DNA of 64,000 nucleotides. Source: Streptomyces oryzae (lineage in GTDB: Bacteria > Actinomycetota > Actinomycetes > Streptomycetales > Streptomycetaceae). This document shows positions 23,829 to 48,251 of the stretch, piece by piece. Under the pieces are notes generated by a model. It was not told where the DNA came from, did no database searches, and was given only the letters and a program-made list of their open reading frames with translations. Where the stretch lies: the NCBI RefSeq assembly GCF_017676365.1, contig NZ_JADKMA010000012.1, positions 1 through 64,000 of the forward strand. Direction: 5' to 3'. Position 1 is the first letter of the stretch. Each line of letters opens with the position of its first letter. Both the position numbers and the translations under genes were made by a program.

Positions 23829-23850
23829 CCTCCAAGGAGTCCCGAGAAGC

Positions 23851-24885: not shown

Positions 24886-24957
24886 TCAAGATCCGAGCAG
24901 CCCCGTACGACAGGGTCGGGCGCTGCGGACTCACCGCATATACGAAGGAGCGCCGCA

Positions 24958-25206
24958 ATGGCCGCCACTCAGGAAGAGATCGTCTCGGGCCTCGCCGAGA
25001 TCGTGAACGAGATCGCCGGTATCCCGACCGAGGACGTCCAGCTGGAGAAGTCCTTCACCGACGACCTGGACGTGGACTCGCTGTCCATGGTCGAGGTGGT
25101 CGTCGCCGCCGAGGAGCGCTTCGGCGTGAAGATCCCGGACGACGACGTCAAGAACCTCAAGACCGTCGGCGACGCGACCGAATACATCCTCAAGCACCAG
25201 AGCTGA
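24958..25206 (+). CDS. acpP: Acyl carrier protein
   Basis: 82 residues, acidic. It carries growing acyl chains on a phosphopantetheine attached at Ser41 in DVDSLSMVEV. It has the usual helix II recognition surface with acidic residues (AAEERFGVKIPDDD). ATG preceded by AAGGAG. Third gene of the fab operon; a stable intercistronic stem-loop follows it and may raise its relative mRNA level. Confidence 0.98.
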   Translation: MAATQEEIVSGLAEIVNEIAGIPTEDVQLEKSFTDDLDVDSLSMVEVVVAAEERFGVKIPDDDVKNLKTVGDATEYILKHQS

Positions 25207-25220
25207 GACATCCGTTGACG

Positions 25221-25256
25221 CGTTTGTCGCCACCCGGCCTGCGGGTGGCTCAAACG
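25221..25256 (+). promoter_or_regulatory. Intercistronic stem-loop between acpP and fabF
   Basis: GCCACCCG (25229-25236) and CGGGTGGC (25242-25249) form a perfect 8-bp stem with a GCCTG loop; the outer CGTTTG and CAAACG pair as well, extending it to 14 bp with a one-base asymmetry. It could be an attenuator or a 3' stabiliser of the fabD-acpP part of the mRNA. Confidence 0.6.
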
Positions 25257-25285
25257 AGTCACCCCCTACCGTGGAGAGTATTCCA

Positions 25286-32811: not shown

Positions 32812-34038
32812 CTAAGGCGGGCCCAGCTCGCCGCGCAACCGCATCGTGCGCAGCACCAGTTCGAGCTCGAAGCGGCTGTCGGGGTCGTCGATCTCGTCGC
32901 CCCACAGCTCGCGGATCTGGCGCAGCCGGTAGCGCACCGTCTGCGGATGCACGCCGAGGCGCCCCGCCACCTCCGGTGCGCCGCCGCGGGTCTCCAGCCA
33001 GGCCAGCAGCGTCTCGGCCAGCCGGCGGCTGTGCGCGGGACCGCAGGACTCCAGCGGCGCGAGCCTGCGCCGGGTCAGCCCGGCGATCAGTTCCTCGGGC
33101 GGCAGCAGCACCAGTGCCTCGGTGTGCTCCGTGCAGTGGAGCAACTCCCCGCCCGGCAGCAGGCCTCGCTCCATCAGTCCGACGGCGGACTGGGCCCAGC
33201 GCAGTGACTTGGCGGCCTCGGCCAGCGGCACGGGAGGTCCCACGGCGCCGGACCAGCCCGCGGTGGCACGGCGCAGCAGCTCAGGTCTGCCGGGCGACTC
33301 CGGCTCGGGCACCACCATGCGGGGCTGTTCGCACTCCATGTCGAGAAGGACCTCGTCGCCCACGGCGGGCGGTACGGCCGAGCGGGCGGGACGCACCAGG
33401 ACGGCGACGGCGACGGTCTGCGGCACCCGCCAGCCGATGCGGGCGGCGCGGTCGGCGAGCAGGTCGGCGCGGTCTGCTCCGCCGCGCGGCGGATGGTCGG
33501 ACAGCAGCAGATCCAGCAGCCGCCGCTGGAGCCGCAGCCGCTCCCCGGCCTGCCGTGCCGCCGCCTCCGCGTAGCCCCGCACGGACTCGGCCACCAGCCC
33601 GTCGAGGTACTGGAAGCCGGACTCGGCCAGCTCGTACATCGCAGGTGGCGGGATCTCCATCTGGGTGCCGATCTCGGCGAACCGGCGCCAGGCCAGCCGG
33701 ATGCCGAGCCGGTAGATGGCCTGCAACGAGTCGAGACTGCGTCCGTGGAGGACCTCGCCCCGGCCGAACTCCTGGAAGACCTGCGGCGGCACGTGCGGGG
33801 CCTCCAGCCCGGTGGCCAGGTTCTCCACGAAGTGCTCCAGCGCGCGCCGGATGCCGATGAGCGCCATCGGTTCGCCCGAGTCGTCCAGCACCAGGGGCAG
33901 GGCAGGGTACTCCCGGCGGATGCCCGCGAGGATGTCCTGGGCGAGCACGGGCACCTCGGCCATGGCGCGCTCGGCGAACTGCCGTACGCGCAGCGGTGGT
34001 ACGTCCTGCCAGGCCGAGCGGACGGGCGCGGACGTCAC
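32812..34038 (-). CDS. PucR/CdaR-type helix-turn-helix regulator
   Basis: 408 residues. The C-terminal HTH is APEVAGRLGVHPQTVRYRLRQIRELWGDEIDD; the N-terminal part (residues ~20-170) is the helical sensor seen in this class (SLDSLQAIYRLGIRLAWRRF). GTG at 34038 has GGGGGAG 5 nt upstream; a GTG at 34044 overlaps the previous stop as GTGA but lies too close to the ribosome site. The gene is coupled to the small protein gene upstream. Both face away from the glycan operon starting at 34775, so control of that operon is possible but unproven. Confidence 0.9.
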   Translation of the reverse strand: MTSAPVRSAWQDVPPLRVRQFAERAMAEVPVLAQDILAGIRREYPALPLVLDDSGEPMALIGIRRALEHFVENLATGLEAPHVPPQVFQEFGRGEVLHGRSLDSLQAIYRLGIRLAWRRFAEIGTQMEIPPPAMYELAESGFQYLDGLVAESVRGYAEAAARQAGERLRLQRRLLDLLLSDHPPRGGADRADLLADRAARIGWRVPQTVAVAVLVRPARSAVPPAVGDEVLLDMECEQPRMVVPEPESPGRPELLRRATAGWSGAVGPPVPLAEAAKSLRWAQSAVGLMERGLLPGGELLHCTEHTEALVLLPPEELIAGLTRRRLAPLESCGPAHSRRLAETLLAWLETRGGAPEVAGRLGVHPQTVRYRLRQIRELWGDEIDDPDSRFELELVLRTMRLRGELGPP

Positions 34039-34040
34039 CG

Positions 34041-34463
34041 TCACTCCCCCGGCGCGGCGGCGGAGCCCGAGGGCCCGGCCCCGTCCCGGGTTCCGCCCCG
34101 GGGCCCGCGCTGGGCGCTGTCCGGAGCGCCGTCTTCGGCACCGTTCGCGGAGTCCGGGGTCGCCGAACGCGCGGTGGTGCCGGGTGCGTTGTCCGCGGGC
34201 TCCTCCGCGTCCCTGGCGGAGCCGGGGCTGGAGGCCGGGTCGGAGGCGGGGCTCTTGGACGGGCCCGCCGCTCCGCTGGGCGAGGCGGACGGCAGCGCGG
34301 ACCCGAGGCCGGGGATCTCGTCCGGCGACGAATGGAAGTGCACCAGCGGCACGTTGGGCTGCTCGGGGGTGGCGGCGAGGGCGGCGACGATGCCGAGGCC
34401 CGCGCCGACGGCTAGACCGGCGGCGACCACGCAGGTGAGCGCGGCGGCGAGGAGTCTGTGCAT
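34041..34463 (-). CDS. Small membrane-anchored or secreted protein, DUF2613-like
   Basis: 140 residues. The N-terminal MHRLLAAALTCVVAAGLAVGAGLGIVAALAA is a signal anchor or uncleaved signal; PEQPNVPLVHF follows, and the remaining ~95 residues are an Ala/Ser/Pro/Gly-rich disordered stalk (SPSGAAGPSKSPASDPASS). The N-terminal part resembles the actinobacterial DUF2613 family. The ATG at 34463 was taken instead of the longer frame. Its stop overlaps the next regulator gene. It is divergent from the DUF3068 gene and may be an accessory of the same envelope system. Confidence 0.7.
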   Translation of the reverse strand: MHRLLAAALTCVVAAGLAVGAGLGIVAALAATPEQPNVPLVHFHSSPDEIPGLGSALPSASPSGAAGPSKSPASDPASSPGSARDAEEPADNAPGTTARSATPDSANGAEDGAPDSAQRGPRGGTRDGAGPSGSAAAPGE

Positions 34464-34774: not shown

Positions 34775-35758
34775 ATGCGCCGTACCGCATCGCCTCTCGC
34801 CCTGATTCTGCTGGGCCTCGGCGTCTTCCTGCTCGTGCTCTCGCCGATGCTCGCCTGGTACGTCGAACCGCGGGCCAAGCGCACCCCCACCGACGTGAAC
34901 ATCACCTCGGTCTTCACCGGCAAGGGCAAGTACTTCGACCAGCAGGAACTCAAGACCAAGAGCGGCCAGAAGCTCACCGTCACCCGGCGTGTGCTGGGCG
35001 ATGTCGCGGCCAGTGAGAAGAGCGGGCGGGCCGTGTGGAACGTCTCGCAGGCCATCGACAACCCCAAGACCCGCAAGCTGGACGACCCGCGCAAGTCGTT
35101 CCAGTGGACGACCGAGCGTCTGGTGACCGACCGCAAGAACAACCGGCCGGTCAACTGCTGCCGCTCCAAGCCGAAGGACATCGCCGGAGAGGCGTATCTG
35201 AAGTGGCCCTTCGACGTGGAGAAGCGCGACTACGCCTGGTGGGACAGCAGCCTGGGCGCGACCGTTCCGCTGCACTACAAGGGCGAGGCGAAGGTGCGCG
35301 GCCACCAGGGGCTGCGCTTCTCCGGCACGGTGCGGCCCACCCGGGCCGGAACGCGGCAGGTTCCCGGCGTGCTGGTGGACCGTCCCGACAGCGGGCAGGT
35401 CAATGCCGAGGAGTGGTACTCGAACTCGGGCCTGGACTTCATTGTCGACCAGCGCACCGGCCGCATCCTCTACGCCGCGACCGGGCCGAAGCTCGTCCTG
35501 CGCGCACCCGGCGGCAAGGCCGACAAGGTGACGCTGCTGCAGAGCGACAAGCTGGCGTTCACCAAGAAGACCCAGCAGGAGGCCGTGGACCTGGCCAGGG
35601 ACGACAACTCCCGGCTGCGGCTGGTCGGCAGCGTCGCCCCGGTCGGCACAGCGTCGGCCGGCGGAGTGTGTGCTGCGGCCGGTGCCGTGCTGGTCGTCAG
35701 GGGCCGCCCCGCTCCCGCCCGTGCCCGGCACGCCCCCGCTCACCCGGCAGAGGGGTGA
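34775..35758 (+). CDS. DUF3068 (PorA-family-like) envelope protein
   Basis: 327 residues. An N-terminal membrane helix (LALILLGLGVFLLVLSPMLAW) is followed by a large extracytoplasmic beta-rich domain (YFDQQELKTKSGQKLTVTRRVLGD ... KWPFDVEKRDYAWWDSSLG) and a weak C-terminal hydrophobic stretch. This is the DUF3068 layout, common in mycolic-acid actinobacteria and also in streptomycetes. CC in VNCCRSK may be functional. ATG with CGGAG upstream. First gene of the putative glycan operon, though 385 bp separate it from the next gene. Role unknown. Confidence 0.82.
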   Translation: MRRTASPLALILLGLGVFLLVLSPMLAWYVEPRAKRTPTDVNITSVFTGKGKYFDQQELKTKSGQKLTVTRRVLGDVAASEKSGRAVWNVSQAIDNPKTRKLDDPRKSFQWTTERLVTDRKNNRPVNCCRSKPKDIAGEAYLKWPFDVEKRDYAWWDSSLGATVPLHYKGEAKVRGHQGLRFSGTVRPTRAGTRQVPGVLVDRPDSGQVNAEEWYSNSGLDFIVDQRTGRILYAATGPKLVLRAPGGKADKVTLLQSDKLAFTKKTQQEAVDLARDDNSRLRLVGSVAPVGTASAGGVCAAAGAVLVVRGRPAPARARHAPAHPAEG

Positions 35759-35764
35759 CGGGGG
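35733..35764 (+). terminator. Hairpin at the DUF3068 stop codon
   Basis: About 11 paired bases with one bulge (arms 35733-35745 and 35753-35764) overlapping the stop codon at 35756-35758. Partial termination here would separate the DUF3068 gene from the rest of the glycan genes. Confidence 0.5.
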
Positions 35765-36143
35765 CATGTGCGTGTCCGTGCGCGCGGCGAACTCGGCTCC
35801 TGCTGTGCACTGATGGTTGAACACGCGACAGAGCGCGAAGTGATGAAGCCTCAGGCGCATTCCGGAGCAAAATTGTCACTCCGGTGAGTAGCCACCCGCG
35901 AACGCTGCGGCGAACACTGAGCCTCCAACGCGCACCGCCCCGCAACAACCCCCGCGCACGGCCCCCGCAAAGCCTTCGCACCGCCTTCGCACGGCATGAG
36001 CCCCCTCTGCAACGCGCACCGCACCCGCAATGGCTCCACCGCAAGGCACGGCCCCACCCCGGAAAGCCGCACCGACAAGCCCCCGCCGAAGCGGCCCCCA
36101 CCGCTTCGGTCCCTACCGCACCCTGAGACGAGTTGGAGCACCG
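35759..36143. promoter_or_regulatory. Intergenic region before the glycosyltransferase gene
   Basis: 385 bp. An 80-codon open frame (35884-36126) is highly biased and has no ribosome site, so I reject it as a gene. The palindrome CCGGAG-N11-CTCCGG (35862-35884) surrounds the A/T-rich AAAATTGT and is a possible operator or promoter for the downstream eight-gene block. Confidence 0.45.
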
Positions 36144-37448
36144 ATGCCCCAGCACGTACGACCCTCCCTGGTCCCCCCACACGACCAGCACGCCGCCCTC
36201 GCGCCTGCCGCCACCGCCGGGCAGGACTCCGCCCCGCGCAGGCAGCGTCCGGCCGATCCAGGGTCCCCCCGCCGCATCGTCTTTCTGGCGCGGCGGGATC
36301 TCGGCAATCCGGCCGCGGGCGGCTCCGAGCTGCTGATCGACCGGATCGCCGAGGGACTCACCCACCATGGCCACCAAGTCACCCTGTTGTGCGGTGGCCC
36401 TGCCGCCTATCGCGACTACCGCGTCGTGTCGGCCGGCGGTGACGCCACACACTTCCTGCGTGCCCGCAGCGCCTTCGCCCGGCAGGTGGGCGACTGCGAC
36501 CTGCTGGTGGAGGTGTGCAACGGCATGCCCTACCTCGCGCCCCTGTGGTACCGGGGGCCGACGCTCTGCTTCGTCAATCATGTGCACACCGACCTGTGGG
36601 GCATGCGCTACCCGGCTCCCGCAGCACGGCTGGGCCGGCAGCTCGAGCACTGGGCGCTGGCGCGCAACCACCGGCGCAATCTGAAGGTCGCCGTCTCCGG
36701 ATCGACCGCGCGGGCACTGACCGGGATCGGGGTGCCCGAGGAAGAGATCCGCATCGTGCACAACGGTGTCGAGGAGCCCGGCCCGCCGCATCCCAAGGCG
36801 GCCGAGCCGCTGTTCCTGGCGATGGGACGGCTGGTGGAGTACAAGCGGGTCGATCTGCTGCTGCGCCTGTGGGAGCGGGTCAGGCCGGTCACCGGGGGCC
36901 GGCTGGTCATCGTCGGTGACGGCCCGGAACGGCCGGCGCTGGAGGCCATGGCCGGCCCTGGCGTCACGTTCACCGGGCACATCAGCGAAGGTGAAAAGCA
37001 CCGACTGCTGTGCCGTTCCTGGTTACTGCTGCACCCCTCTCTGGTGGAGGGGTGGGGGCTGGTCGTCATGGAGGCGGCGGCACGCGGCACCCCGGCGATC
37101 GGTTTCGACATCCCCGGGCTGCGCGACTCCGTCGAGGACGGGGTGACCGGGCTGCTGGCGCGCGGGGAGAGTTCGTTCGCGGCGCACTGGTGCGCGCTCG
37201 CGCTGTCGGCGGAACGGCGGCTGGCACTGGGCCGCGCGGCAGAGCGCAGGGCGGCCCAGTTCCGCTGGGCACAGACGGTGCGCGGCTTCCGGGCCGTCGC
37301 TGCAGAGGCGTACGCGCGCGCAGCCGGCAGCCCGGCTGCAGGCGGCAATCCGGCTGCTGGCGGCACCCCGGCGCCGCCCGTCCCTGGGTGCGGCGAGGTG
37401 GACGGCGCCTCCCGTACCGGTCCGCGCCCTGTTCCCGTAGGGCGGTGA
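36144..37448 (+). CDS. Glycosyltransferase family 4
   Basis: 434 residues. GT-B fold: N-terminal domain RRIVFLARRDLGNPAAGGSE (glycine-rich acceptor loop) and C-terminal donor site LFLAMGRLVEYKRVDLLL, LVIVGDGPERPALE, and LHPSLVEGWGLVVMEAAARGTPAIGFD with the EX7E glutamates. Retaining enzymes of this family use nucleotide sugars in the cytoplasm. Start ATG 36144 with TTGGAG upstream. It begins a run of eight genes overlapping or nearly so. A Gly/Ala/Pro repeat (AGGNPAAGGTPAPP) lies near the C-terminus. Confidence 0.93.
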   Translation: MPQHVRPSLVPPHDQHAALAPAATAGQDSAPRRQRPADPGSPRRIVFLARRDLGNPAAGGSELLIDRIAEGLTHHGHQVTLLCGGPAAYRDYRVVSAGGDATHFLRARSAFARQVGDCDLLVEVCNGMPYLAPLWYRGPTLCFVNHVHTDLWGMRYPAPAARLGRQLEHWALARNHRRNLKVAVSGSTARALTGIGVPEEEIRIVHNGVEEPGPPHPKAAEPLFLAMGRLVEYKRVDLLLRLWERVRPVTGGRLVIVGDGPERPALEAMAGPGVTFTGHISEGEKHRLLCRSWLLLHPSLVEGWGLVVMEAAARGTPAIGFDIPGLRDSVEDGVTGLLARGESSFAAHWCALALSAERRLALGRAAERRAAQFRWAQTVRGFRAVAAEAYARAAGSPAAGGNPAAGGTPAPPVPGCGEVDGASRTGPRPVPVGR

Positions 37449-37455
37449 TAGGGCC

Positions 37456-38184
37456 GTGCGGGACCCCTCCATCAGACGATCCGTCGCACTCTTCCGTGCG
37501 TTTCTGCGCGAGCAGTCCGACCCCGAGTTCTGCTACGGCCTCCTCGCGCGGGACGCGGTGCGACAGGTGGAGCGTTACGTCCCGCTGGAGGGCCGCACTG
37601 TCGTGGACGTCGGCGGCGGCAGCGGGCACTTCACCGAGGAGTTCCGCCGCCGGGGAGCGCACTGCTTCCTGTTCGAGCCGGACCCGGAGGAGCTGCACGC
37701 GGGCGGGCGGGAGCCCGAAGGCGCGGTGCTGGCCGACGGTTATCTGCTGCCACTGGCCGACGGAGTGGCGGACGTGTGCTTCTCCTCCAATGTGCTCGAG
37801 CACGTGGCCGATCCACAGACCTTCCTGTCCGAGATGGTCCGGGTGACCCGCCACGGCGGGCTGATCTATGTGTCGTTCACCAACTGGTACTCCCCCTGGG
37901 GCGGCCACGAGACGGCGCCCTGGCACTACTTGGGGGCCGAACGCGCCCGCTCCCGCTACCGGCGCCGTACCGGCCGCCCCGCCAAGCACACCCTCGGCGA
38001 GAACCTGTTCGCCGTGCACATCGGGCCGACTCTCCGTCACGTGCGCGCCCGGGACGACGTGGAGATCGTCGCTGCCCGCTCCCGCTACTGGCCGTTCCTG
38101 GCGGGCGCGATCACCCGTGTACCCGGAGTGCGCGAGTTCGCCACCTGGAACCTCCTCCTCATCCTCCGGCGGTGTCCCTCATGA
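37456..38184 (+). CDS. Class I SAM-dependent methyltransferase
   Basis: 242 residues. Motif I is VVDVGGGSGHFTEEF, motif II acidic LFEPDPEEL, and motif IV-like CFSSNVLEHVADPQTFLSEMVRVTRHGG. GTG start 8 bp after the glycosyltransferase. Its stop overlaps the AftD-like gene by ATGA. The likely substrate is a sugar or lipid-linked sugar made by its neighbours. WYSPWGGHETAPWHYLG in the C-terminal half is characteristic of this branch. Confidence 0.93.
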   Translation: MRDPSIRRSVALFRAFLREQSDPEFCYGLLARDAVRQVERYVPLEGRTVVDVGGGSGHFTEEFRRRGAHCFLFEPDPEELHAGGREPEGAVLADGYLLPLADGVADVCFSSNVLEHVADPQTFLSEMVRVTRHGGLIYVSFTNWYSPWGGHETAPWHYLGAERARSRYRRRTGRPAKHTLGENLFAVHIGPTLRHVRARDDVEIVAARSRYWPFLAGAITRVPGVREFATWNLLLILRRCPS

Positions 38185-41100
38185 CCACGACCGTCCAGGC
38201 ACCACCCCAGACCCCGGCTCCTTCCGCGCGGCCCGTTCCTCCCCCGGAGGGGCCCAGGAGCCGACGCTGGCTGTTCGGCTTCTGGGCAGTCGTCCTGGTC
38301 GCCTTCCTGGCCAAGTCGCCGGGGAAGATGACGTTCGAGACCAAGCTGGGCGTGGCTGCCGACCCCTGGCAGTTCCTGGGCGACCTGGGGCAGTTGTGGC
38401 ACGACCGCGGCGGCTTCGGCGGAATCGCCGACCAGTACGCCGGCTACCTCTTCCCGGCACTGCCGTACTACGGGCTGACCGATCTGCTCCAGATACCGAC
38501 CTGGCTGGCCGAGCGGCTGTGGATGTCGCTGATCGTCTCGGCGGCGTTCTGGGGCGCCCTGCGGCTGGCCGAGCGGCTCGGCGTGGGCAACGGCGCCACC
38601 AGGCTGCTCGCCGCTGTGGTGTACGCGCTGTGGCCCACCTACACCATCGTCATCGGCTCCACCTCGGCCGCCGCGCTGCCGGGCGCCGTACTGCCGTGGG
38701 TGCTGCTGCCGCTGACCTCAGCCCTGGTGGCGCCCCGTGTCGCGGCGGCCCGCTCGGCGCTGGCGATCCCCTTCATGGGAGGCGTGAACGCCGCCTCCAC
38801 GCTGGCTGCGCTGCTGCCCGCGCTGCTGTACGTCGCCACCCGCACCGGACGCACCCGCCGCACCCTGCTGGCCTGGTGGCTGCCGGGCGTCATGCTGGCC
38901 ACTATCTGGTGGTGGGTGCCGCTGCTGCTGCTCGGCACGTACGGCGAGGACTTCATGCCGTACGTGGAGAACGCCCGGACCACCACAGGCACCATGTCGG
39001 CCACCGAGATGCTGCGCGGCGGCGGCAACTGGACGGCCTATCTGCACTTCGGGGAGGCCTGGCTGCCGGCCGGCTGGACGGTGGCGGCCGACTGGCTCGC
39101 CATCCTGGGCGGTGCTTTCGCCGCAGCGCTGGGGCTGGCCGGGCTGGCACGCCGCGACCTGCCGGAGCGGCGCTGGCTGGTGCTGACGGCTGTGACCGTC
39201 AGCGGCGTCATGCTCGCCGGTTACGCGGGCGCGCTGGGCGCGCCGTTCGCCGAGCAGGTCCAGGACTGGCTGGACGGCCGGCTGCGCCCGTTCCGCAACA
39301 TCTACAAGTTCCAGCCGGGCCTCGCACTGGCGCTCGTCTTCGGGCTCGCCCACCTGCTCGCCGTCGCCGCCAGGACCCGCGGCACCAGGGCGCTGCCGGG
39401 CCGCGGACTGGTGCTGTGGGTGGCGACGCTGGCGGTGCTGCCCGGGCTGTGTCTGCCGTACGTCAACGGGGACGTCCTCCAGCCTGGCGCCTTCGGCAAG
39501 CTGCCCAAGCACTGGCAGCAGACGGCCGACTGGCTGGAGAAACACAGCCCGCACACCCGCGCCTACGTCACCCCCGCGACGGCGCACGGCATCTACACCT
39601 GGGGCTCTCCCATCGACCAGCCGCTGGACGTGCTCGCCAAGTCCCCCTGGGCACAGCGCGACTATGTGCCGTTCGGCACCCCGGGCAACCGCAGGGCGAC
39701 CGACGCGGTGGAGCAGGCCCTGATGAGCGGCGGCGAGGTCCCCGGGCTGGCCGACTTCCTGGCCCGCGCGGGTCTCTACAACGTCGTCGTACGCAACGAC
39801 CTCGACCCCGACCAGGTGGGCTACGTACCGCCGCAGACCGTCAAGCGCACCCTGGAGGCGTCCGGCTACCGGAAGGTGAAGGGTTTCGGGCCGACCCTGA
39901 CCGGGGGCCGTATCCCCGAGGGAACGCCCGTACAGGTCGCCGGTTTCTATCCGCGCCAGCGGGCCGTGGAGATCTACCAGCCGACCGGTACGGCGCGCCC
40001 GCAGCGGGCCGCGCTCAAGCCCATCTCGCAGACGGCACAGGTCAGCGGCGGCCCCGAGGCGCTGCTGCCGCTGGCGGGCGACGACCGGATCAAGGGCAGG
40101 CCGACCGTGCTGACCGGGGACAACCATCCCGGCCTGGGCACCCCGTCGCTGCAGGTCAAGGGCGACGGGCTGCGGCGCGCCGACACCCGGTTCGGGCTGG
40201 TGAACACCAACACCTCGTACACCTACACCGCCGGCGAACGGAACCATCCGGACAGCCTCCAGCAGCCCGGAGAGAAGCCGAAGCAGATCCTGCCGGCCAA
40301 GGGCACCCGGCACCAGACGACGTCCGTGCTGCGCGGTGCGAAGTCCGTGACGGCCTCCAGCAGCGGCAACTGGCTCTTCCACCTGCCGCAGTACGAGCCC
40401 GTGGGCGCCTTCGACGGCAACCCGGACACCGCGTGGGCGGAGGGCTCGGCAGGTGAGCCCGAAGGCCAGTGGATCAAGGCGGAGTTCCGGAAGCGGGTGG
40501 ACATCCCCCGCACGATCGAGGTGACGCCGCTGCCCGGTGACGCGACCCGCGCGGCACCCACCCGGGTGCGGGTGGAGACCGAGAACGGCAGCACCTCCGG
40601 TTTTCTGCGTCCTACAGGGGAACGGCAGCAGATCAAGGCACCGCAGGGCACGTCCCGCTGGCTGAAGCTGACCATCACCGAGGCGCAGCCGCCGCGCGCC
40701 GGACTGTCGGGCGCCGGCTTCGCCGAAATCAGCATCCCTGGGGTGCAGGTGACCCGACTGCTGAAGCTCCCGGCAGACGCCGATGGTGACGGTGCGGACA
40801 GTGAGCTGGTTTCGCTGCACCGGGGCGACGATCCCGGCGGCCTCTCCCCCGTCTCCGCCGAGGTGGGGCTGCACCGCAAATTCACCACTGCTGCGAGCTC
40901 CGACTACGGCATAAGGGCACGAGCACTGCCCGTACCGGGCGGCGAACTCGACCGGCTGCTGGACGAGGCGGCCCCCGGATCGCGCGACCGGATCACCGCA
41001 TCGGTGGACTCGACTGCCAGAACCGGTACCGCGTTGAGCGCACGCAATCTGGTGGACGGAAATCTCTCCACAGCGTGGATCGCCGGTGACAAGCCGACCA

Positions 41101-42593
41101 TCCGCCTCAAGTGGCCCGAGAAGCGGGAGATCGGCGAAATCGTGCTCGCCCCGGCCGGCGGCATCTCGGCGGCCGCCAAGGAAGTGCGGATCAGCTCACC
41201 GGACGGAGCGACGACAGCCGGGGTCGACAAGTTCGGCCAGGCGCGCTTCGAGTCGATCGAGACGGACCAGATGACGCTCACCGTCACCAAAACGAAGCCA
41301 CTGACGGTGCACAATCCCCTCGCCGACCGGCAGCTCCAGCTTCCGGTCGGGCTCAACGAGGTCTATCTGCCCGCACTGGACGACTTCCGGGTGCCGGCAC
41401 CCGATCCGGACCAGAAGTTCGAACTCCCCTGTGGCAAAGGCCCGATGCTCGCCGTGGACGGCACCCTGCACGCCACCGAGGCCGCCGGGAAAGTCCGCGA
41501 CCTGACCGAGCGCCGCCCCATCGATGTGCGCCTGTGCGCCGGTGAGGCGGAGGACGGCAGCCTGGAACTGGACGCCGGCGGCCACACCGTGGAAGCCGGT
41601 GACACCGGCCCACTGGCCATCACCGACGTCACCCTGGGCAGCGGCGACGAGGGCACGGCAGGCGCCGAAGGCGCGTCCGGTGCCGGTTCCGGGCAGCGTC
41701 CTGCCGACCGTAAGAGCGTCGCCCGCGACTGGGCGGGCGACGAACGCGCTGTCGAGGTGGGCGACGGACCAGCCGCCTACCTGCAGACGTACGAGAACGC
41801 CAACGACGGCTGGAGGGCCACCCTCAACGGCAAACAGCTGCGCCCGCTGCGGCTCGACGGCTGGCAGCAGGGCTTCCTCGTGCCCGCCGGAGAGACGGGC
41901 ACGGTCAAGCTCGAGTACCAGCCCGCCACTTGGTACAAGGCCGGGCTGATCGCGGGCGGACTGGGCATCGTCGCACTGCTGTGCCTGGCCTTCATCGGTA
42001 TGCGGCGCGGTACGCCGCTGGGCGCCGGGGATGAACGGGATCCGGTGCCGCCGCCCGGCCCGGTACTCGGCACGGTGGCGCTCACCCTGGTGGTCGCGCT
42101 GGTCGCGGGCCCGTATGCGCTGGTCGTCCCGGCGCTGGCGGTGGCCGCCCGGCTCCGGCCCGGCGTGCTGGCACCGGTGGCGCTGGTGGCCATGGCGGGT
42201 GCCGGAGTGGTCGCCGCGCTCGGTGCCGGGTCAGCGCTCGCGGACGGGCAGGGGGCCTTCGGACACGTGGCACAGGCTCTGGCCCTGCTGGCGCTGGCGG
42301 CCGCACTGGTGACGCTGCCCGCGCGGCAGCAGGAGCCCGCCATCGCAGCGGAGCCGGGGCCGTGGGGGCCCGAGGCGGGACCGGAGCCACCGGACGCGCC
42401 GACCGCGCAGCAGCCGAAGCCGGAGCAGCCTCCGCAGCCGTCCTCGCCGTACGCCGCGGAGGCCGCGACGGCGCCCCTGCCGCCCGTGCCGCCCGCACCG
42501 CACCGCGGACCCGTCCAGAGCCCGCCCGATGAGCAGCCCGGCCCGCACCAGGCCCGGCGGCACCCGCACGAAGGGGAGGAACCCGCCCCATGA
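38181..42593 (+). CDS. AftD-like alpha-(1->3)-arabinofuranosyltransferase homologue (GT-C, DUF3367)
   Basis: 1470 residues. The N-terminal ~430 residues hold about ten membrane helices, with the first extracytoplasmic loop ETKLGVAADPWQFLGDL (from Glu53; Asp61) in the place where GT-C enzymes carry catalytic acids. A long extracytoplasmic part follows with two discoidin-like carbohydrate-binding modules, near 730 (VGAFDGNPDTAW) and 950 (NLVDGNLSTAWI). Further helices lie at ~1250-1400, then a Pro-rich tail. This is the architecture of mycobacterial AftD, which branches arabinan using decaprenyl-phosphoarabinose. Streptomycetes have no arabinogalactan, so the sugar and acceptor are unknown. Coupled at both ends by ATGA overlaps. 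Confidence 0.88.
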   Translation: MTTTVQAPPQTPAPSARPVPPPEGPRSRRWLFGFWAVVLVAFLAKSPGKMTFETKLGVAADPWQFLGDLGQLWHDRGGFGGIADQYAGYLFPALPYYGLTDLLQIPTWLAERLWMSLIVSAAFWGALRLAERLGVGNGATRLLAAVVYALWPTYTIVIGSTSAAALPGAVLPWVLLPLTSALVAPRVAAARSALAIPFMGGVNAASTLAALLPALLYVATRTGRTRRTLLAWWLPGVMLATIWWWVPLLLLGTYGEDFMPYVENARTTTGTMSATEMLRGGGNWTAYLHFGEAWLPAGWTVAADWLAILGGAFAAALGLAGLARRDLPERRWLVLTAVTVSGVMLAGYAGALGAPFAEQVQDWLDGRLRPFRNIYKFQPGLALALVFGLAHLLAVAARTRGTRALPGRGLVLWVATLAVLPGLCLPYVNGDVLQPGAFGKLPKHWQQTADWLEKHSPHTRAYVTPATAHGIYTWGSPIDQPLDVLAKSPWAQRDYVPFGTPGNRRATDAVEQALMSGGEVPGLADFLARAGLYNVVVRNDLDPDQVGYVPPQTVKRTLEASGYRKVKGFGPTLTGGRIPEGTPVQVAGFYPRQRAVEIYQPTGTARPQRAALKPISQTAQVSGGPEALLPLAGDDRIKGRPTVLTGDNHPGLGTPSLQVKGDGLRRADTRFGLVNTNTSYTYTAGERNHPDSLQQPGEKPKQILPAKGTRHQTTSVLRGAKSVTASSSGNWLFHLPQYEPVGAFDGNPDTAWAEGSAGEPEGQWIKAEFRKRVDIPRTIEVTPLPGDATRAAPTRVRVETENGSTSGFLRPTGERQQIKAPQGTSRWLKLTITEAQPPRAGLSGAGFAEISIPGVQVTRLLKLPADADGDGADSELVSLHRGDDPGGLSPVSAEVGLHRKFTTAASSDYGIRARALPVPGGELDRLLDEAAPGSRDRITASVDSTARTGTALSARNLVDGNLSTAWIAGDKPTIRLKWPEKREIGEIVLAPAGGISAAAKEVRISSPDGATTAGVDKFGQARFESIETDQMTLTVTKTKPLTVHNPLADRQLQLPVGLNEVYLPALDDFRVPAPDPDQKFELPCGKGPMLAVDGTLHATEAAGKVRDLTERRPIDVRLCAGEAEDGSLELDAGGHTVEAGDTGPLAITDVTLGSGDEGTAGAEGASGAGSGQRPADRKSVARDWAGDERAVEVGDGPAAYLQTYENANDGWRATLNGKQLRPLRLDGWQQGFLVPAGETGTVKLEYQPATWYKAGLIAGGLGIVALLCLAFIGMRRGTPLGAGDERDPVPPPGPVLGTVALTLVVALVAGPYALVVPALAVAARLRPGVLAPVALVAMAGAGVVAALGAGSALADGQGAFGHVAQALALLALAAALVTLPARQQEPAIAAEPGPWGPEAGPEPPDAPTAQQPKPEQPPQPSSPYAAEAATAPLPPVPPAPHRGPVQSPPDEQPGPHQARRHPHEGEEPAP

Positions 42594-44332
42594 CACCACC
42601 GCACAAGGGCCCGGGCAGCACACCCGCACAGGAAGCCGCCCACGGCGCTACGGCCGGCCCGCAGGACGAGGCACCCGAGCGGGCGGTCGTATCGGCCGGG
42701 TCGGCGCCACAGGTGAGCTCCCCCCGTGCGCACGACAGTCGGGCAGGAACGGAGAGCAAAGTCGGCGCCGCGAACCGGGGCGAGGCGCCCGGCGCGGGAG
42801 GCACTGCGCCCCGCGCGGGAGTCACGGCGCCCGGCGCGGGAGTCACCAAATCCGGCGCGGGAGTCACCGAATCCGGCGCAGAAGCCCCAGCACCCGGCCC
42901 TGGAGTCACCTCACCCGGCGCAGGCGCCCCCGCAGCCGGCGCAGGGGTCCCCGCATCCGCCGGTCAGGAGCGCCGCATTCCGTTCCCCACAGTGGACGAG
43001 ATAACCCGGCACTGTCTGGACGACGACGAGCCGGAGACGGTGCATGTGGAGATCCATCTGCCCGCGCGGCCCGACCCCGACCGGCTGCGGGCCGCGTTCG
43101 CCGAGGCGATGCGGCGGCATCCGCGCATCCTGCTGCGGCAGGCGCCCAACCGCTGGTGGCGGCGCCGGTACGCGTGGGTGCTGACCGGGGAGCCGGACCG
43201 GGACCCGGTCTCCTTCCCGGGCGGCACCCTGGAGGAGGCGCGGCAGCGGGCCCTGACGGAGTGCCCGCCACTGGACGCCTCGCCGCCGTTCCGCGCGGAG
43301 GTGATCGAGCACGGCGACGGATGCGTGCTCCTGGTGACGATCAACCACACGGCGCTCGACGGCCCGGCGTGCTTGCGGGTGGTGGCGACAGCGGCCGAGC
43401 TGTACGGGGGCGCGGACAACTCCCCCGCGCCGCCGCCCGTGAGAGCGCCCGCCGAGCAGCGCGATGCGGACCTGCAGTCCGTATCGGGCGGACGGCTGTG
43501 GCCGCGTCCGGCCCGTATCGCCGCAGACACCCGCCATCCGGGAACGCCCCGCAACGGCATGCTGATCGCCGACCTCCCGGTGCCCGCCCGGCCGCCGCGC
43601 GCTCCCGGAGAGCAGGCTCCGTACACCGTCAACGACCAACTGCTGGTCGCCACCTGGCTGATGGTGGCCCGCTGGAACAGCGCACACCAGAAGCGCGTTC
43701 GGCCCGTGCGGATCACCATGCCGGTGGACGACCGGCCCCGCACCGCCGATATGCCCATCGGGAACGGCACCCGGCTGGTGGAGGTCACCTTCGGCGCACA
43801 GGAACGAGAACTGCACCAGGCACTGACGGCGCACGGCCCGGCCGACCGGAAGGAAATAGAGCGACTGCTGCGCACGACGGCCGCCCGTACCCGCGCCCTC
43901 AAGTCCGCCGACCGTCCCCAACTGGGCTTCAGCGGCGACCTGCTGACCGCTCCGCTGCTGCCCGTGGGAGTGCGCGCAGCAGTGATCCGTACGCTGCGCA
44001 GGGCGGCAGGACCGTGGGCGTCCACCACGCTGCTGTCCAACATCGGCCGGGTTCCCTACCCGCTGGACTTCGGTGACGCTGGACGTGCCGGCGCTGTCTG
44101 GTTCTCTGCCCCGGCCCGGATGCCGCGCGGGCTGTCCGTGACGACCGTCTCGACAGGCGGGCGGCTCCAGTTGGCGCTGCGCTGGTCGCACGCCCGGCTG
44201 GACGACAGTGCGGGGGACCGCCTCGGCGCGCTGTTCGCCGAGGCGCTGGCCGCCACCTCGTACGCCCCCCAGGAGCAGGTGCCCGAGGTCCCGCAGCGAG
44301 CGGCAGGACCGGACGAGGAGCCCTCGGCATGA
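42590..44332 (+). CDS. Condensation-fold acyltransferase (PapA/wax-ester-like)
   Basis: 580 residues. The first ~125 are disordered and contain eight 7-residue repeats; the rest is a two-lobed condensation-type domain. The active-site motif is NHTALDG (His253, Asp257), a variant of HHxxxDG in which the first His is Asn. DDRPRTADMPIGNGTRLVEVTF and LGFSGDLLTAPLLPVG fit the second lobe. There is no carrier protein or adenylation domain near it, so it probably transfers an acyl group from CoA to a hydroxyl, as PapA enzymes do for mycobacterial glycolipids. ATG with AGGGGAGG, overlapping the previous stop. Confidence 0.8.
   Translation: MTPPHKGPGSTPAQEAAHGATAGPQDEAPERAVVSAGSAPQVSSPRAHDSRAGTESKVGAANRGEAPGAGGTAPRAGVTAPGAGVTKSGAGVTESGAEAPAPGPGVTSPGAGAPAAGAGVPASAGQERRIPFPTVDEITRHCLDDDEPETVHVEIHLPARPDPDRLRAAFAEAMRRHPRILLRQAPNRWWRRRYAWVLTGEPDRDPVSFPGGTLEEARQRALTECPPLDASPPFRAEVIEHGDGCVLLVTINHTALDGPACLRVVATAAELYGGADNSPAPPPVRAPAEQRDADLQSVSGGRLWPRPARIAADTRHPGTPRNGMLIADLPVPARPPRAPGEQAPYTVNDQLLVATWLMVARWNSAHQKRVRPVRITMPVDDRPRTADMPIGNGTRLVEVTFGAQERELHQALTAHGPADRKEIERLLRTTAARTRALKSADRPQLGFSGDLLTAPLLPVGVRAAVIRTLRRAAGPWASTTLLSNIGRVPYPLDFGDAGRAGAVWFSAPARMPRGLSVTTVSTGGRLQLALRWSHARLDDSAGDRLGALFAEALAATSYAPQEQVPEVPQRAAGPDEEPSA
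42789..42956 (+). repeat. Eight 21-bp tandem repeats in the condensation-protein gene
   Basis: 168 bp made of eight 21-bp units of the form CCGGCGCGGGAGTCACC-NNNN, encoding seven-residue units such as SGAGVTK/SGAGVTE. The repeat keeps frame, so copy number can vary without inactivating the gene. Confidence 0.88.
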
Positions 44333-45129
44333 GCGGTGCCACCAGCAGCCTCCAGGAGCTCTACGAGGACCCGGCGACCCCGGTCGCCTCCGGACCCGAC
44401 CGGGCGCGCCGCCAGGCGGCGTTACTGGCGCGGGCCCTGGGCGCCACCCCGGCCACGGTCCTGGACATCGGCTGTGGCGACGGCACTGCGGCGGCCGTCG
44501 CGGCGCGTGCGCTGCCCGGGCACCGTCTGGTGGGCGTCGACTGGTCGCAGGACGCGCTGCGCCGCGCCTCGGCGCGTCTGACGGCCGTACGGGGCGAGCT
44601 CTCGGCGCCCGGCCTGCCGTTCGCCACCGGGTCGGCCGACGCGGTGCTCTTCTCGGAGGTGATCGAGCACCTCGTCGACCCGGACGCCGCGCTGGACGAA
44701 CTGCACCGGGTGCTGCGTCCGGGCGGGCATCTGCTGCTGTCCACACCGAACCTGGCCGCCTGGTACAACCGCGCACTGCTGCTGCTGGGCACCCAGCCGG
44801 TGTTCTCCGAGGTGTCGCTGCGCGGTATCCACGGCCGCCCCGGGTCGCAAGTGGTGGGTCACCTGCGGCTGTTCACGGCGCGTGCGCTGCGCTCGATGCT
44901 GCCCGCGGCCGGTTTCCGCGTCGTACGGGTCACCGGGGCGCCGTACCACGATGTGCCCCGCCCGCTGCGCCCGCTGGACCGCGCCGCCTGTCATCTGCCG
45001 TCCCTGGCCTCCATCCTGCTGGTGCACGCGCGCGCGGTGCCGCGGCAGGGCGGGAGGCCACGGCAGGACGGGAGGCCCCGGCAGGGCGCGGCGCCGCACC
45101 GTGAGCCGCCCGCGGAGGAGGGCAGCTGA
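44329..45129 (+). CDS. Class I SAM-dependent methyltransferase
   Basis: 266 residues. Motif I VLDIGCGDGTAAAVAAR, acidic GVDWSQDALRRA, and FSEVIEHLVDPDAALDELHRVLRPGGHLLLSTPN, a standard ubiE/Methyltransf_11 pattern. The C-terminus ends in an Arg/Gly/Pro-rich segment. ATGA overlap with the condensation gene and a one-base TGATG overlap with the membrane protein downstream show strong translational coupling. It is distinct from the methyltransferase at 37456, so the product may carry two or three methyl groups. Confidence 0.92.
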   Translation: MSGATSSLQELYEDPATPVASGPDRARRQAALLARALGATPATVLDIGCGDGTAAAVAARALPGHRLVGVDWSQDALRRASARLTAVRGELSAPGLPFATGSADAVLFSEVIEHLVDPDAALDELHRVLRPGGHLLLSTPNLAAWYNRALLLLGTQPVFSEVSLRGIHGRPGSQVVGHLRLFTARALRSMLPAAGFRVVRVTGAPYHDVPRPLRPLDRAACHLPSLASILLVHARAVPRQGGRPRQDGRPRQGAAPHREPPAEEGS

Positions 45130-46139
45130 TGCTCTGGGGCGTCGCGGCGGCACTGCTGGCCAACCTGCTGTTCAGCGCGGGCTTCGTCATCGAGAAGCGG
45201 GCGCTGTCCGCGCTGCCGCCGCTGTCCGCCGGGCACCCGGCACGGCTCGTTGTGCATCTGCTGCGCAGCCCGCTGTGGATCGCGGGGGCCGCCTCGCTGC
45301 TGCTCGGCTTCGCCGCACAGCTCACCGTCTACCGCACGCTCCCTCTCGTCGCGGCCCAAGGGCTGTTCGTCACCGGTCTGGTGATGCTCCTGCTGCTGTC
45401 GGCCCTCTTCCTCGGCGAGCGGTCCAGCGGGCGCGAGCGGCAGGGAATGCTGGCCATTCTGGCGGCACTGCTGATGATTGTCTTCTCGCTGCACAACAGC
45501 TCCGAGACGATCAGCAAGCTGGCGCCCGTGCCCCTGCTGCTCGGCATCTGTCTGCCCTCACTGGCGCTGGGTCTCGCGCTGTTCCTGTCTGCCGAGCGGC
45601 GCTCCCGACGGCGCCACCGGCTGCCCACTGCAGGTGTGCCCTACGGGGTGGCGGTGGGGTTCCTGTACGGGGTCAGCTCGCTGGCCATCAAGGGCGTCGC
45701 CGGACTGCTGGACCCAGGTGACCTGGGCAGCACTCTGGTGGCCCTGCTCAGCTCGCCGTATCCGTACCTCCTGGCGTTCACCGGATCGACGGGGCTGGTG
45801 CTGTCGCAGACAGCGCTGCAGCGGTGCCGCGCCTCACTGGTCGTACCGGTGTGCACCACAGTGAACTTCCTCTACGCCACAGTCAGCGGCACCGTCGCCT
45901 TCGCCGAGCCACTGCCCGAGCAGCCGCTGCGGCTCGCGCTGCGGCTGGGCGGTGCCGCACTCGCCGTCTGCGTCCTGGTCACCCTGCCCCGCCACGAACC
46001 GGACCCGGGGTCCGGAGCCGGGGACGCAGACCACGAGCCCGTACCCGAGCCCGTGCCGAAGAGTCTCCCGCCCGCTGGGCGCCCACTGTCGGCGACGCTG
46101 CCGCCCGGGCGCCCGGAAGAGCCCCCGGAAAGGCAGTGA
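45129..46139 (+). CDS. EamA/DMT-type integral membrane transporter
   Basis: 336 residues with about ten membrane helices in two repeated halves: MLWGVAAALLANLLFSAGFVIEKRAL at the start and TGLVLSQTALQRCRASLVVPVCTTVNFLYA in the second half, as in drug/metabolite transporters of the EamA type. The last ~50 residues are a soluble acidic/proline tail. In a glycan locus such a protein may flip a lipid-linked sugar or export a precursor, as ArnE/F and undecaprenyl-phosphate flippases of this superfamily do. The substrate is inference. Confidence 0.82.
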   Translation: MLWGVAAALLANLLFSAGFVIEKRALSALPPLSAGHPARLVVHLLRSPLWIAGAASLLLGFAAQLTVYRTLPLVAAQGLFVTGLVMLLLLSALFLGERSSGRERQGMLAILAALLMIVFSLHNSSETISKLAPVPLLLGICLPSLALGLALFLSAERRSRRRHRLPTAGVPYGVAVGFLYGVSSLAIKGVAGLLDPGDLGSTLVALLSSPYPYLLAFTGSTGLVLSQTALQRCRASLVVPVCTTVNFLYATVSGTVAFAEPLPEQPLRLALRLGGAALAVCVLVTLPRHEPDPGSGAGDADHEPVPEPVPKSLPPAGRPLSATLPPGRPEEPPERQ

Positions 46140-46141
46140 CT

Positions 46142-46375
46142 ATGACCCGCTTCACCGCCGACGATCCCCTGCTGAAGATCCTCGCCTGCCCGCTGGACAA
46201 GGGCCCGCTCACCCTGCTGGAGCCGGAGGAAGCGCTCTACAACCCGCGGCTGCGCCGCCGCTACCCCATCGTGGACGGGATTCCCCAGCTGCTTCCCTCC
46301 TCCGGTGAGCAGGTCGGTGACGAGGAGCACCAGCGGCTGCTCAAACGCCTCTCCGAGCCGGAGGCCCCCTCCTGA
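46142..46375 (+). CDS. Trm112-like small protein
   Basis: 77 residues: LLKILACPLDKGPLTLLEPEEALYNPRLRRRYPIVDGIPQLLP. The CPLxKG and YPIxDGIPxLLP blocks are those of the Trm112/YcaR family, whose eukaryotic and archaeal members bind and activate methyltransferases. Only the first of the zinc cysteines is present, as usual in bacterial members. It starts 2 bp after the EamA gene and its stop overlaps the FkbM methyltransferase start, so a role as a methyltransferase partner is plausible. Confidence 0.9.
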   Translation: MTRFTADDPLLKILACPLDKGPLTLLEPEEALYNPRLRRRYPIVDGIPQLLPSSGEQVGDEEHQRLLKRLSEPEAPS

Positions 46376-47142
46376 TGACTCTCGCCTCCCGCATCGGCCC
46401 GCATCTGCCGGCACGCCTGCTGACCGCCGCGACCGACCTGCTGTACCCGCACTTCGAACCGGAACTGGCGCGGCTGGCCGACTTCTGCCCGTATGGCGGC
46501 ACAGCTGTCGACATCGGCGGCTGGTACGGGCCCTGGACGCGCAGGCTGGCCCGGCGCGCCGACCGTGTGGTCACCCTCGAGCCCGTCCCGCATCTGGCAC
46601 GTCTGCTGCGCGCTGCTGCACCGCCGCACACGGAGGTGCTACAGGCCGCGGCCAGCGACCGCCCGGGCACGGCGACACTGTGGCTGCCGCCCGACGGGCG
46701 CGGCGACCGCGGCGTCTCCTCACTGGTGCGGCGCGAAGTGCACCAGGCGACGCTGGACGTGCCCTGTCTGCCGCTGGACGAGCTGGCGCTGACGGATGTC
46801 ACCCTGCTCAAGATCGACGTGGACGGCAGCGAGCTGGCCGTGCTGCACGGTGCGGAGGCGACCGTCGTACGCGAACGGCCCGCCCTCTTCATCGAGCTGG
46901 AGCTGCGCATCCAGCCGCTCGCACCGGTGCTCTCCCTGTTGTCGTCGCTCGGCTACACCGGCTGGGTACTGCCCGCCCGCACCTGGGTGCCACTGGCCGA
47001 CTTCGACCTGGCCGCACATCAGCGGCGCACAGCACACGTCGCCGAACACGGACTGCTGCGGCGCTCGCTCGCGCCGCACCGGAGGTATGTCAACTCGGTG
47101 CTGTTCCTCCCTGCCGGCCGCACGCCGGGGCGGCAACCGTAA
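46375..47142 (+). CDS. FkbM-family methyltransferase
   Basis: 255 residues. SAM site AVDIGGWYGPWTRRLARRADRVVTLEPVPHLARLL and the FkbM hallmark LLKIDVDGSELAVLHGAEATVV near residue 145, followed by FIELELR. FkbM enzymes methylate hydroxyl groups of sugars or polyketides. Start codon overlaps the Trm112-like stop by one base. Last gene of the operon; convergent with ku. Confidence 0.92.
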   Translation: MTLASRIGPHLPARLLTAATDLLYPHFEPELARLADFCPYGGTAVDIGGWYGPWTRRLARRADRVVTLEPVPHLARLLRAAAPPHTEVLQAAASDRPGTATLWLPPDGRGDRGVSSLVRREVHQATLDVPCLPLDELALTDVTLLKIDVDGSELAVLHGAEATVVRERPALFIELELRIQPLAPVLSLLSSLGYTGWVLPARTWVPLADFDLAAHQRRTAHVAEHGLLRRSLAPHRRYVNSVLFLPAGRTPGRQP

Positions 47143-47207: not shown

Positions 47208-48221
47208 TCAGGCAGTCTTGCGGGACCGCGGGCTCTTCTTGGCTGCCGTCTTCTTTGCCGTCGTCTTCTTGGCGGCGGTCTTCTTCGGGGCGGCTGCCTT
47301 GGAACCCGTCTTCTTGGCGGTGGATTTCGCAGCCTTCTGGGCCTCCGCCTTCTTGGCCGGTGCCTTCTTCTCCGCCGCCTTCTTCCGGGCCGGCCGGCGT
47401 TCCGGCAGCTCGTGGACGGTCGCCTCGCCCTCCTGGCGCCCGCTTCTGGCCTCCTGCACGCTGCGTTCCAGTACGGACATCAGGTCCACCAGCTTGCCGC
47501 CGCCCGCCTCGGCCCTGCGGCGCAGCTCCTCGGGCGGGGGCCCGACGCCCTCCGCCTTCGCCCTGACGAGCTCTTCCAGCGCCTCCCGGTACTCGTCGCG
47601 CAGATCGTTCCAGTCCAGCTCCCCGAGCGTCTCCATGAGGGTGTCGGCCAGATCGAGTTCGGCGTCCCGCACCTCGACCTGCCCCTCGGGGGCCACCCCG
47701 CTGACGGAGCGGATCTCGTCGGGCCACAGCATGGTGTGCAGGGCCAGCGCGTCCTCGTAGACGCGCAGCATTCCCAGGCTCTCCCGGGCCCGCAGCGCCA
47801 GCTTGGCGACGGCGACCTTGCCGGATCTTCGCAGCGCCTCGCGCAGCAGCACATAGGGCTTGTCGGCCCGCTTGCCGTCCGCGGCCAGGTAGTAGGAGCG
47901 GTCGAGCTGGAGGGGGTCGATCTCCTCGGCGGGTACGAAGCCGAGGATCTCCACGGTCTTGGCGGTGGGGAGCGGGAGGGCCGCCATGTCGTCGTCCGTC
48001 AGCAGTACGGTGTGGCCCTCTTCGGTCTCGAAACCCCGGCCGATCTCCTCACGCGGCACCTCCTCCTCGTCCAGCTCGCACACCTTGCGGTAGCGGATTC
48101 GGCCCCCGTCGGCAGTGTGCACCTGGTGGAAGGAGACGCTGTGGTTCTCGGTGGCGGCCACCACCTTGATCGGGATCGAGACCAGCCCGAAGGAAATGGT
48201 CCCTTTCCAGATTGAACGCAT
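47208..48221 (-). CDS. ku: Ku DNA end-binding protein (NHEJ)
   Basis: 337 residues. It begins MRSIWKGTISFGLVSIPIKVV, the invariant bacterial Ku start, and has the beta-barrel core through RESLGMLRVYEDALALHTMLWPDEIR. It binds DNA ends as a dimer and recruits LigD. The C-terminal ~75 residues are a Lys/Ala-rich tail with AAKKT-type repeats, similar to histone-like tails in other actinobacterial Ku proteins, adding DNA binding. The start has GAAGGGA upstream. The ligD-polymerase gene is divergent, 30 bp away. Confidence 0.96.
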   Translation of the reverse strand: MRSIWKGTISFGLVSIPIKVVAATENHSVSFHQVHTADGGRIRYRKVCELDEEEVPREEIGRGFETEEGHTVLLTDDDMAALPLPTAKTVEILGFVPAEEIDPLQLDRSYYLAADGKRADKPYVLLREALRRSGKVAVAKLALRARESLGMLRVYEDALALHTMLWPDEIRSVSGVAPEGQVEVRDAELDLADTLMETLGELDWNDLRDEYREALEELVRAKAEGVGPPPEELRRRAEAGGGKLVDLMSVLERSVQEARSGRQEGEATVHELPERRPARKKAAEKKAPAKKAEAQKAAKSTAKKTGSKAAAPKKTAAKKTTAKKTAAKKSPRSRKTA

Positions 48222-48251
48222 ACTTTGTCCCTTCTATGGGACTCTCAGGGT
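48222..48251. promoter_or_regulatory. 30-bp divergent ku/ligD control region
   Basis: Only 30 bp separate the two start codons. It contains GTCCC-N6-GGGAC (48227-48242). The ku ribosome site (GAAGGGA) is inside it, so at least the ku promoter must overlap the ligD coding start, e.g. TACCCT on the minus strand. Confidence 0.5.

Follow-up and report, generated by a model that had tools for sequence, protein, structure and literature searches.

What does a homologue of the mycobacterial enzyme AftD do in Streptomyces, a genus from which we know of no mycolates? The question is raised by nine plus-strand genes of Streptomyces oryzae at positions 34775-47142 of contig NZ_JADKMA010000012.1, of which the first 64,000 nucleotides were analysed (the window). 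A first-pass annotation had described these genes as a locus built around AftD, making a methylated and perhaps acylated surface glycan. The idea of a surface glycan locus stands insofar as the genes form a conserved envelope glycan- or glycolipid-like unit, but the picture of a stand-alone locus centred on AftD was not supported: the core has its counterpart in a Corynebacterineae locus that has been studied, and it is widespread in non-mycolic-acid actinomycetes. We consider it reasonably probable that the operon is the Streptomycetaceae form of an ancient module for envelope glycolipids in actinomycetes, known from Corynebacterineae as tmaT-lmcA/pgfA-mmpA-mtrP with a GT4 glycosyltransferase and a nearby aftD. 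Four common gene families, their linkage across actinomycetes, a Streptomyces-specific extension and an arabinose-donor cassette in the genome are established.

Each of the nine genes is an uninterrupted reading frame. The operon begins with a pgfA/lmcA homologue (DUF3068, PorA family; 34775..35758; PF11271, 238.8 bits). It is followed by a GT4 glycosyltransferase, predicted to be cytosolic with no membrane segments (36144..37448; PF13692, 95.3 bits; PF00534, 92.3 bits), and a class I methyltransferase, MT1 (37456..38184; PF08241, 65.9 bits). The 1470-aa AftD-family GT-C protein comes next (38181..42593; PF11847, 716 bits; CBM_AftD, 40.8; F5_F8_type_C, 40.9). Downstream lie a condensation-superfamily, PapA- or nonribosomal peptide synthetase (NRPS)-like, putative acyltransferase, Cond (42590..44332), recognised by profile search and predicted structure; a second class I methyltransferase, MT2 (44329..45129; PF13489, 91.5 bits); a membrane protein of the DMT superfamily, NIPA/EamA-like (45129..46139; PF05653, 34.8 bits, cut-off 26.2); a small Trm112-like protein (46136..46375; PF03966, 48.6 bits); and an FkbM-family methyltransferase (46375..47142; TIGR01444, 72.9 bits; PF05050, 50 bits). 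Pfam thus bears out the earlier DUF3068, GT4, methyltransferase, AftD-like GT-C, Trm112-like and FkbM labels. GT4 and MT1 are separated by a 7-base gap, and the overlapping junctions described from 37456 onwards are indeed there, with six consecutive stop/start overlaps after MT1 (ATGA, ATGA, ATGA, TGATG, GTGA and TGATG). Because 385 bases separate pgfA from the GT4 start used at 36144, or 271 if the longer open reading frame from 36030 is correct, pgfA may carry its own promoter.

The published Corynebacterineae locus comprises tmaT, lmcA, mmpA and mtrP (PMC8698533, PMC8972800), with roles in trehalose-mycolate transport and in lipomannan/lipoarabinomannan (LM/LAM) synthesis (PMC8698533, PMC8972800, PMC9678360). 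It corresponds to NCgl2759-2765, to Rv0226c, Rv0227c and their neighbours, and to MSMEG_0317. The window operon has in common with it pgfA/lmcA, GT4, a methyltransferase at the mtrP position and the linkage to an AftD-family gene, and differs by five added genes and by having neither MmpA nor a TmaT-like gene. Within 20 kb around AftD in mycolata, a GT4 33-36% identical to that of the window was found in five of seven regions and a methyltransferase 42-46% identical to MT1 in four of seven; identity to MT1 was 51-53% for the methyltransferases of three further loci (L072-L074). This relates MT1 to the methyltransferase that occupies the mtrP position in the mycolata locus. PgfA lay approximately 4 to 19 kb from AftD, on the same contig, in all eight mycolata genomes.

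The linkage was then followed through named AftD loci. Of 567 confirmed ones, the best 80 by resemblance to an Aeromicrobium-like sequence were used, a selection and not a census. Flanks were searched up to 10 kb on either side of AftD, some being shortened by contig ends. By our own sorting of titles, 26 of the 80 came from mycolic-acid genera and 54 from elsewhere, including Nocardioides, Micromonospora, Actinoplanes, Blastococcus, Pseudonocardia, Kribbella, Jiangella, Nocardiopsis, Kineosporia and Nanopelagicales. As far as we know, no mycolates are made in the non-mycolic-acid genera that have this linkage. The 54 loci held PgfA in 47, GT4 in 50, MmpA in 46, a TmaT-like gene in 44 and the methyltransferase in 39, so that PgfA/MmpA/TmaT/AftD linkage exists outside the mycolate makers. 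Their most frequent order was membrane gene, MmpA, GT4, methyltransferase, AftD, TmaT, PgfA (16 loci). The corresponding counts in the 26 mycolata loci were 25, 21, 22, 25 and 9, the last being lowered by the position of the methyltransferase at the far end of the locus, often outside the flank. MmpA is described as similar to the AftD N-terminal region and as having no homologues beyond corynebacteria and mycobacteria (PMC8698533); in the present data, an Aeromicrobium-like MmpA scores 445 bits with the MmpA equivalog model (cut-off 210). The remaining genes of the window operon form a Streptomyces-specific extension: none of the 80 loci, all outside Streptomyces, held a relative of Cond, Trm112 or FkbM at E 1e-10, and weak matches to MT2 and to the DMT gene occurred in one and two loci, respectively.

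Within the genus, conservation was examined in 121 genomes, those with listed sizes spanning 5.5 to 12.1 Mb. An AftD-family gene was present in 47 and absent from 74, and the operon is therefore probably dispensable in Streptomyces. Gene order was surveyed in 23 loci from 22 of the other 46 AftD-positive genomes. As the first-pass annotation had proposed checking, order is conserved: pgfA, GT4, MT1, AftD, Cond, MT2 and Trm112 are arranged alike in 23/23 loci, with DMT not found in two and FkbM not found in seven. Embleya, also of the Streptomycetaceae, has all nine genes in identical order, and its AftD is the closest named relative of the window protein in a plasmid collection (70.5% identity). 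Since the order recurs in all 23 loci and in Embleya, the arrangement exceeds chance, and the operon is one conserved unit in Streptomyces. MT2 accompanies AftD closely, being present in 45/47 AftD-positive and 1/74 AftD-negative genomes; the two agree in 118/121 genomes (45 with both, 73 with neither), and the three exceptions (G344, G388 and G402) are fragmented assemblies of 800 to 1,770 contigs. The patchy occurrence (47/121), together with a condensation-fold enzyme and several methyltransferases, would also suit a secondary-metabolite tailoring cluster, for a glycosylated, methylated and acylated small molecule, that took up an AftD-like protein. We regard this as very unlikely: no core biosynthetic enzyme was recognised among the nine genes, two membrane proteins of the envelope locus are included, and composition is nearly fixed in the 23 loci and Embleya.

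A gene for a PucR-family protein lies divergently upstream (32815..34041, minus strand; PF13556 HTH_30, 67.4 bits; coding part used, start not fixed). In an in-frame search, its orthologue (63-81% identity) adjoined the operon in 5/5 AftD-positive genomes, whereas ten AftD-negative genomes gave no full-length match exceeding 40%. This protein is probably the regulator of the operon. One of the ten, G299, holds a 96-aa regulator piece of 76% identity (G299:C1:1000787-1001074), with the contig end approximately 4.5 kb away; this piece may be left over from loss of the operon. Some genomes carry more than one copy of AftD. G393 (L130 and L131) and G343 have two near-complete genes each, while in G387 and G296 the second match is partial. 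In G393 each copy stands in an operon with its own PucR-type regulator, FkbM being undetected in that of L130, and in G387 a second MT2 lies approximately 6 kb from the partial AftD match.

The first protein of the operon passes the NCBIfam PgfA equivalog NF053601 at 293.5 bits (cut-off 160). The solved LmcA structure 7n3v was matched at E 7e-47 by profile A4, which includes rows of other genera; the window sequence by itself gave no significant match to 7n3v (E 0.98). Two hydrophobic stretches, one N-terminal and one C-terminal, are read as membrane helices, and the product is predicted to be a periplasmic lipid-binding barrel held between them. Published work reports that full-length LM/LAM in Corynebacterium glutamicum requires LmcA, and that mycobacterial PgfA is essential and linked to trehalose-monomycolate transport and polar growth (PMC9678360). 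The S. oryzae genome has a second pgfA (L064, G000:C41, 6373-7302; NF053601, 321 bits) near an S1-domain gene (rpsA) and coaE. The pgfA of the Aeromicrobium-like locus L072 is also near rpsA, and the sole pgfA of the AftD-negative genome G023 is near a coaE-like open reading frame, as judged by eye. The copy in the rpsA/coaE neighbourhood looks like the ancestral one and may have a general role.

Residues 26-1383 of the window AftD align co-linearly, at 462 bits, with the solved chains 6wbx and 6w98, which we take to be mycobacterial AftD. The GT-C domain and the carbohydrate-binding/discoidin modules are common to both, but a loop differs: DTKxD in mycobacterial AftD is [D/E]TKxG in the Streptomyces proteins. 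The tip of the first outer loop bears the catalytic Asp in GT-C enzymes of this class (PMC12041299), and in AftD either of the two loop acids may be the catalytic one. Among 135 AftD rows compared (43 Streptomyces, 33 mycolata and 59 others), the second acid is Asp in 33/33 mycolata and 57/59 other rows; in Streptomyces it is Gly in 42/43 and Ala in 1/43. The first is Asp in 29/43 and Glu in 14/43 Streptomyces rows, with Glu in the window. R112, N203, E263, R372, K376 and D540 are invariant in 135/135 rows. A quick tree of the same rows places all 43 Streptomyces sequences in one clade (SH-aLRT 99) on a branch of length 1.19; its own check warns that two distant rows, also long-branched, join it there. 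Recent transfer of aftD from mycobacteria was ruled out on this single long-branched clade, subject to the same warning. In Streptomyces rimosus, aftD is reported to be among the most often recombined genes (PMC6437091), which fits a surface structure under diversifying pressure.

Whether the sugar transferred could be arabinose depends in part on the donor. The first-pass annotation had proposed looking for decaprenyl-phosphoarabinose genes, and these are present in S. oryzae, outside the operon on another contig (L114, G000:C196). All three equivalog models score above cut-off: UbiA at 383 bits (207), DprE1 at 634.6 (500) and DprE2 at 359.6 (250). UbiA and PAP2 share a strand, whereas DprE1 and DprE2 are encoded on the opposite one, the PAP2 protein lying between. 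In the Streptomyces DprE1 rows, the stretch LALDIP, which aligns with NVCVDFP, lacks the Cys that benzothiazinones target. Across the 121 genomes, DprE1 was found in 65: 37/47 AftD-positive and 28/74 AftD-negative. AftD and DprE1 thus occur together in 37 genomes, AftD only in 10, DprE1 only in 28 and neither in 46 (Fisher p 1.3e-5, relatedness not removed). Since 28 of the 74 AftD-negative genomes carry DprE1, arabinose probably has another use in the genus. The complete cassette and the AftD/DprE1 association favour a true arabinan branch, in which the operon would arabinosylate a Streptomyces glycan from decaprenyl-phosphate-arabinose, with AftD working as in mycobacteria. We nevertheless think this rather unlikely. 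A DprE1 profile search of 25 genomes was two-peaked, above 700 bits in 6 and below 80 in 19. Among the 19 are the 10/47 AftD-positive Streptomyces without a DprE1-class gene (one, G344, 82% complete), as well as three AftD-positive genomes that are each 100% complete, G214 (Aeromicrobium-like) and the Kribbella-like G085 and G139. Emb had no match in the S. oryzae genome or in any of nine Streptomyces, MptB had no match in S. oryzae, and Streptomyces AftD no longer has the second Asp in its loop motif. Among six more distant AftD-positive genomes, several of them incomplete, DprE1 was found in G138 and not in G013, G042, G170, G181 or G279. In G138, a distant actinobacterium outside the class of the window's host, UbiA, DprE1 and DprE2 homologues stand together (L121), and AftD and PgfA are also present.

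The same AftD-positive genomes lacking a DprE1-class gene (the ten Streptomyces, G214, G085 and G139) and the altered DTKxD motif would be consistent with another polyprenyl-phosphate sugar, such as mannose, arabinose being incidental. This too we hold doubtful, the six invariant residues being expected under a common donor chemistry. Collectively, an arabinose donor is likely present in S. oryzae, but AftD-family genes are not tied to those of the donor. Arabinose transfer by the window enzyme is plausible, but calling it an arabinosyltransferase would be unsafe because DprE1 is absent from some AftD-positive genomes and the loop motif is changed. Two further ideas were set aside. A LAM-like lipoglycan as the product was weakened by the missing MptB and Emb matches in S. 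oryzae, yet MptB matched above cut-off in 7/12 Streptomyces tested. A tie between the first loop acid and DprE1 was also dropped: in Streptomyces, DprE1 is present with 28 Asp and 7 Glu and absent with 1 Asp and 7 Glu, but the acid changes only four times on the tree and the independent-pair test had no power. A literature search, conducted mostly at title and abstract level and with subscription journals thinly covered, found no published product for the Streptomyces operon and no title or abstract dealing with it.

The extension begins with Cond, whose earlier label as a condensation-fold acyltransferase is supported by profile search and predicted structure. The full-length protein had no Pfam match at E 0.1, and its top Pfam score by itself was 11.1 bits, under the cut-off of 30.6. 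Profile A3 of the family matched NRPS didomains joining carrier and condensation domains (PCP-C) at E 6e-6. Among 15 family members, two matched the PapA_C model (best 3e-6), and Condensation and WS_DGAT matched weakly in some. The AF2 model, built from 15 rows, is of moderate confidence (pLDDT 74). Foldseek searches of it against the PDB gave TM scores of 0.45-0.60 by query length among the 50 matches listed of 269 (E<=0.001). The first of these is the dehydratase AzeD, and the rest are mostly NRPS condensation, cyclisation and epimerisation domains, with the TRI3 acetyltransferase also present. A long low-complexity stretch forms the N-terminus, and an HTALD stretch holds His127 and Asp131 in 15/15 rows. 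The fold and the HxxxD stretch are common to Cond and the PapA/NRPS condensation-type acyltransferases, but the Pfam models of the latter score it below cut-off, and Cond would best be placed as a distant subfamily of condensation-superfamily acyltransferases. For the membrane protein, the EamA label is weak (15.6 bits, cut-off 28.2), and DMT/NIPA-like is the better name, although the NF038012 DMT model scores 34.9, below its cut-off of 50. It is a candidate flippase of a lipid-linked sugar. The Trm112-like protein is possibly a methyltransferase partner, and sugar O-methylation would be expected of the FkbM methyltransferase.

From these assignments the following route can be proposed. In the cytosol, GT4 would attach a sugar to a lipid carrier. 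The lipid-linked glycan would then be methylated by MT1, MT2 and FkbM and acylated by Cond. The DMT-type protein would then flip the lipid-linked glycan across the membrane. Outside, the AftD-like GT-C protein would add a sugar from a polyprenyl-phosphate donor, in S. oryzae possibly polyprenyl-phosphate-arabinose, with the glycan gripped by its carbohydrate-binding modules. PgfA/LmcA would carry the glycolipid off the membrane, and the divergent PucR-type regulator would control the operon.

Several points weigh against a variant of the Corynebacterineae module. Much of the Corynebacterineae set is missing from Streptomyces, as MmpA was found in none of the 121 genomes, with Corynebacterium glutamicum as a positive control, and no TmaT-like protein (PF01757, acyltransferase-3) is among the nine. 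Where the Corynebacterineae have tmaT, an acyltransferase-3, the window operon has the condensation-fold protein. Orthology of GT4 and MT1 is suggested by position and by identities of 33-40% and 42-53%, respectively. In C. glutamicum, LM/LAM is affected when lmcA is lost, and trehalose corynomycolates when tmaT, mmpA or mtrP is lost (PMC8698533); the locus there serves two separate pathways, and linkage is therefore no proof of one common product. Mycobacterial PgfA requires a long cytosolic C-terminal tail that LmcA does not have, and its authors question whether it and the LmcA of C. glutamicum are true orthologues (PMC9678360). The last hydrophobic stretch of the window PgfA begins at about residue 290 of 327, leaving no long cytosolic tail, in which respect it is LmcA-like. 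PF05653, the family matched by the putative flippase, carries the name of a magnesium transporter family, and the flippase, carrier and acyl steps are proposed from family resemblance alone.

PgfA, MmpA, MtrP and TmaT have been studied as parts of mycolate transport or of LM/LAM synthesis, whereas AftD has been treated as an enzyme of arabinan. Should the core set be at work in Nocardioides, Micromonospora, Blastococcus and Streptomyces as well, neither of these would be its basic function. We tentatively suggest, at somewhat less than even odds, that PgfA-GT4-MtrP-AftD forms the heart of a machinery for envelope glycolipids that predates both mycolic acids and arabinan. Trehalose-mycolate transport and the maturation of LAM in mycobacteria would have been grafted onto this core, and in Streptomyces it would make an undescribed methylated, acylated surface glycolipid, using an AftD with a changed active-site loop and perhaps a non-arabinose donor. 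The distribution suggests that the machinery predates mycobacterial waxes and that the known module goes further back, and reaches further, than the role published for it. If so, the ancestral function is testable in Streptomyces, which are harmless and genetically tractable.

Two features of the surrounding window may be mentioned. Approximately 8 kb upstream of the operon, at 22881-26551, lies what we take to be a fatty-acid synthesis cluster with an acyl carrier protein gene; its genes are also together in G379. Mycobacterial AftD was solved with an acyl carrier protein. Directly downstream, at 47208-49151, are genes for Ku and a LigD primase-polymerase, a non-homologous end-joining pair, followed by tRNA-Asn and tRNA-Met.

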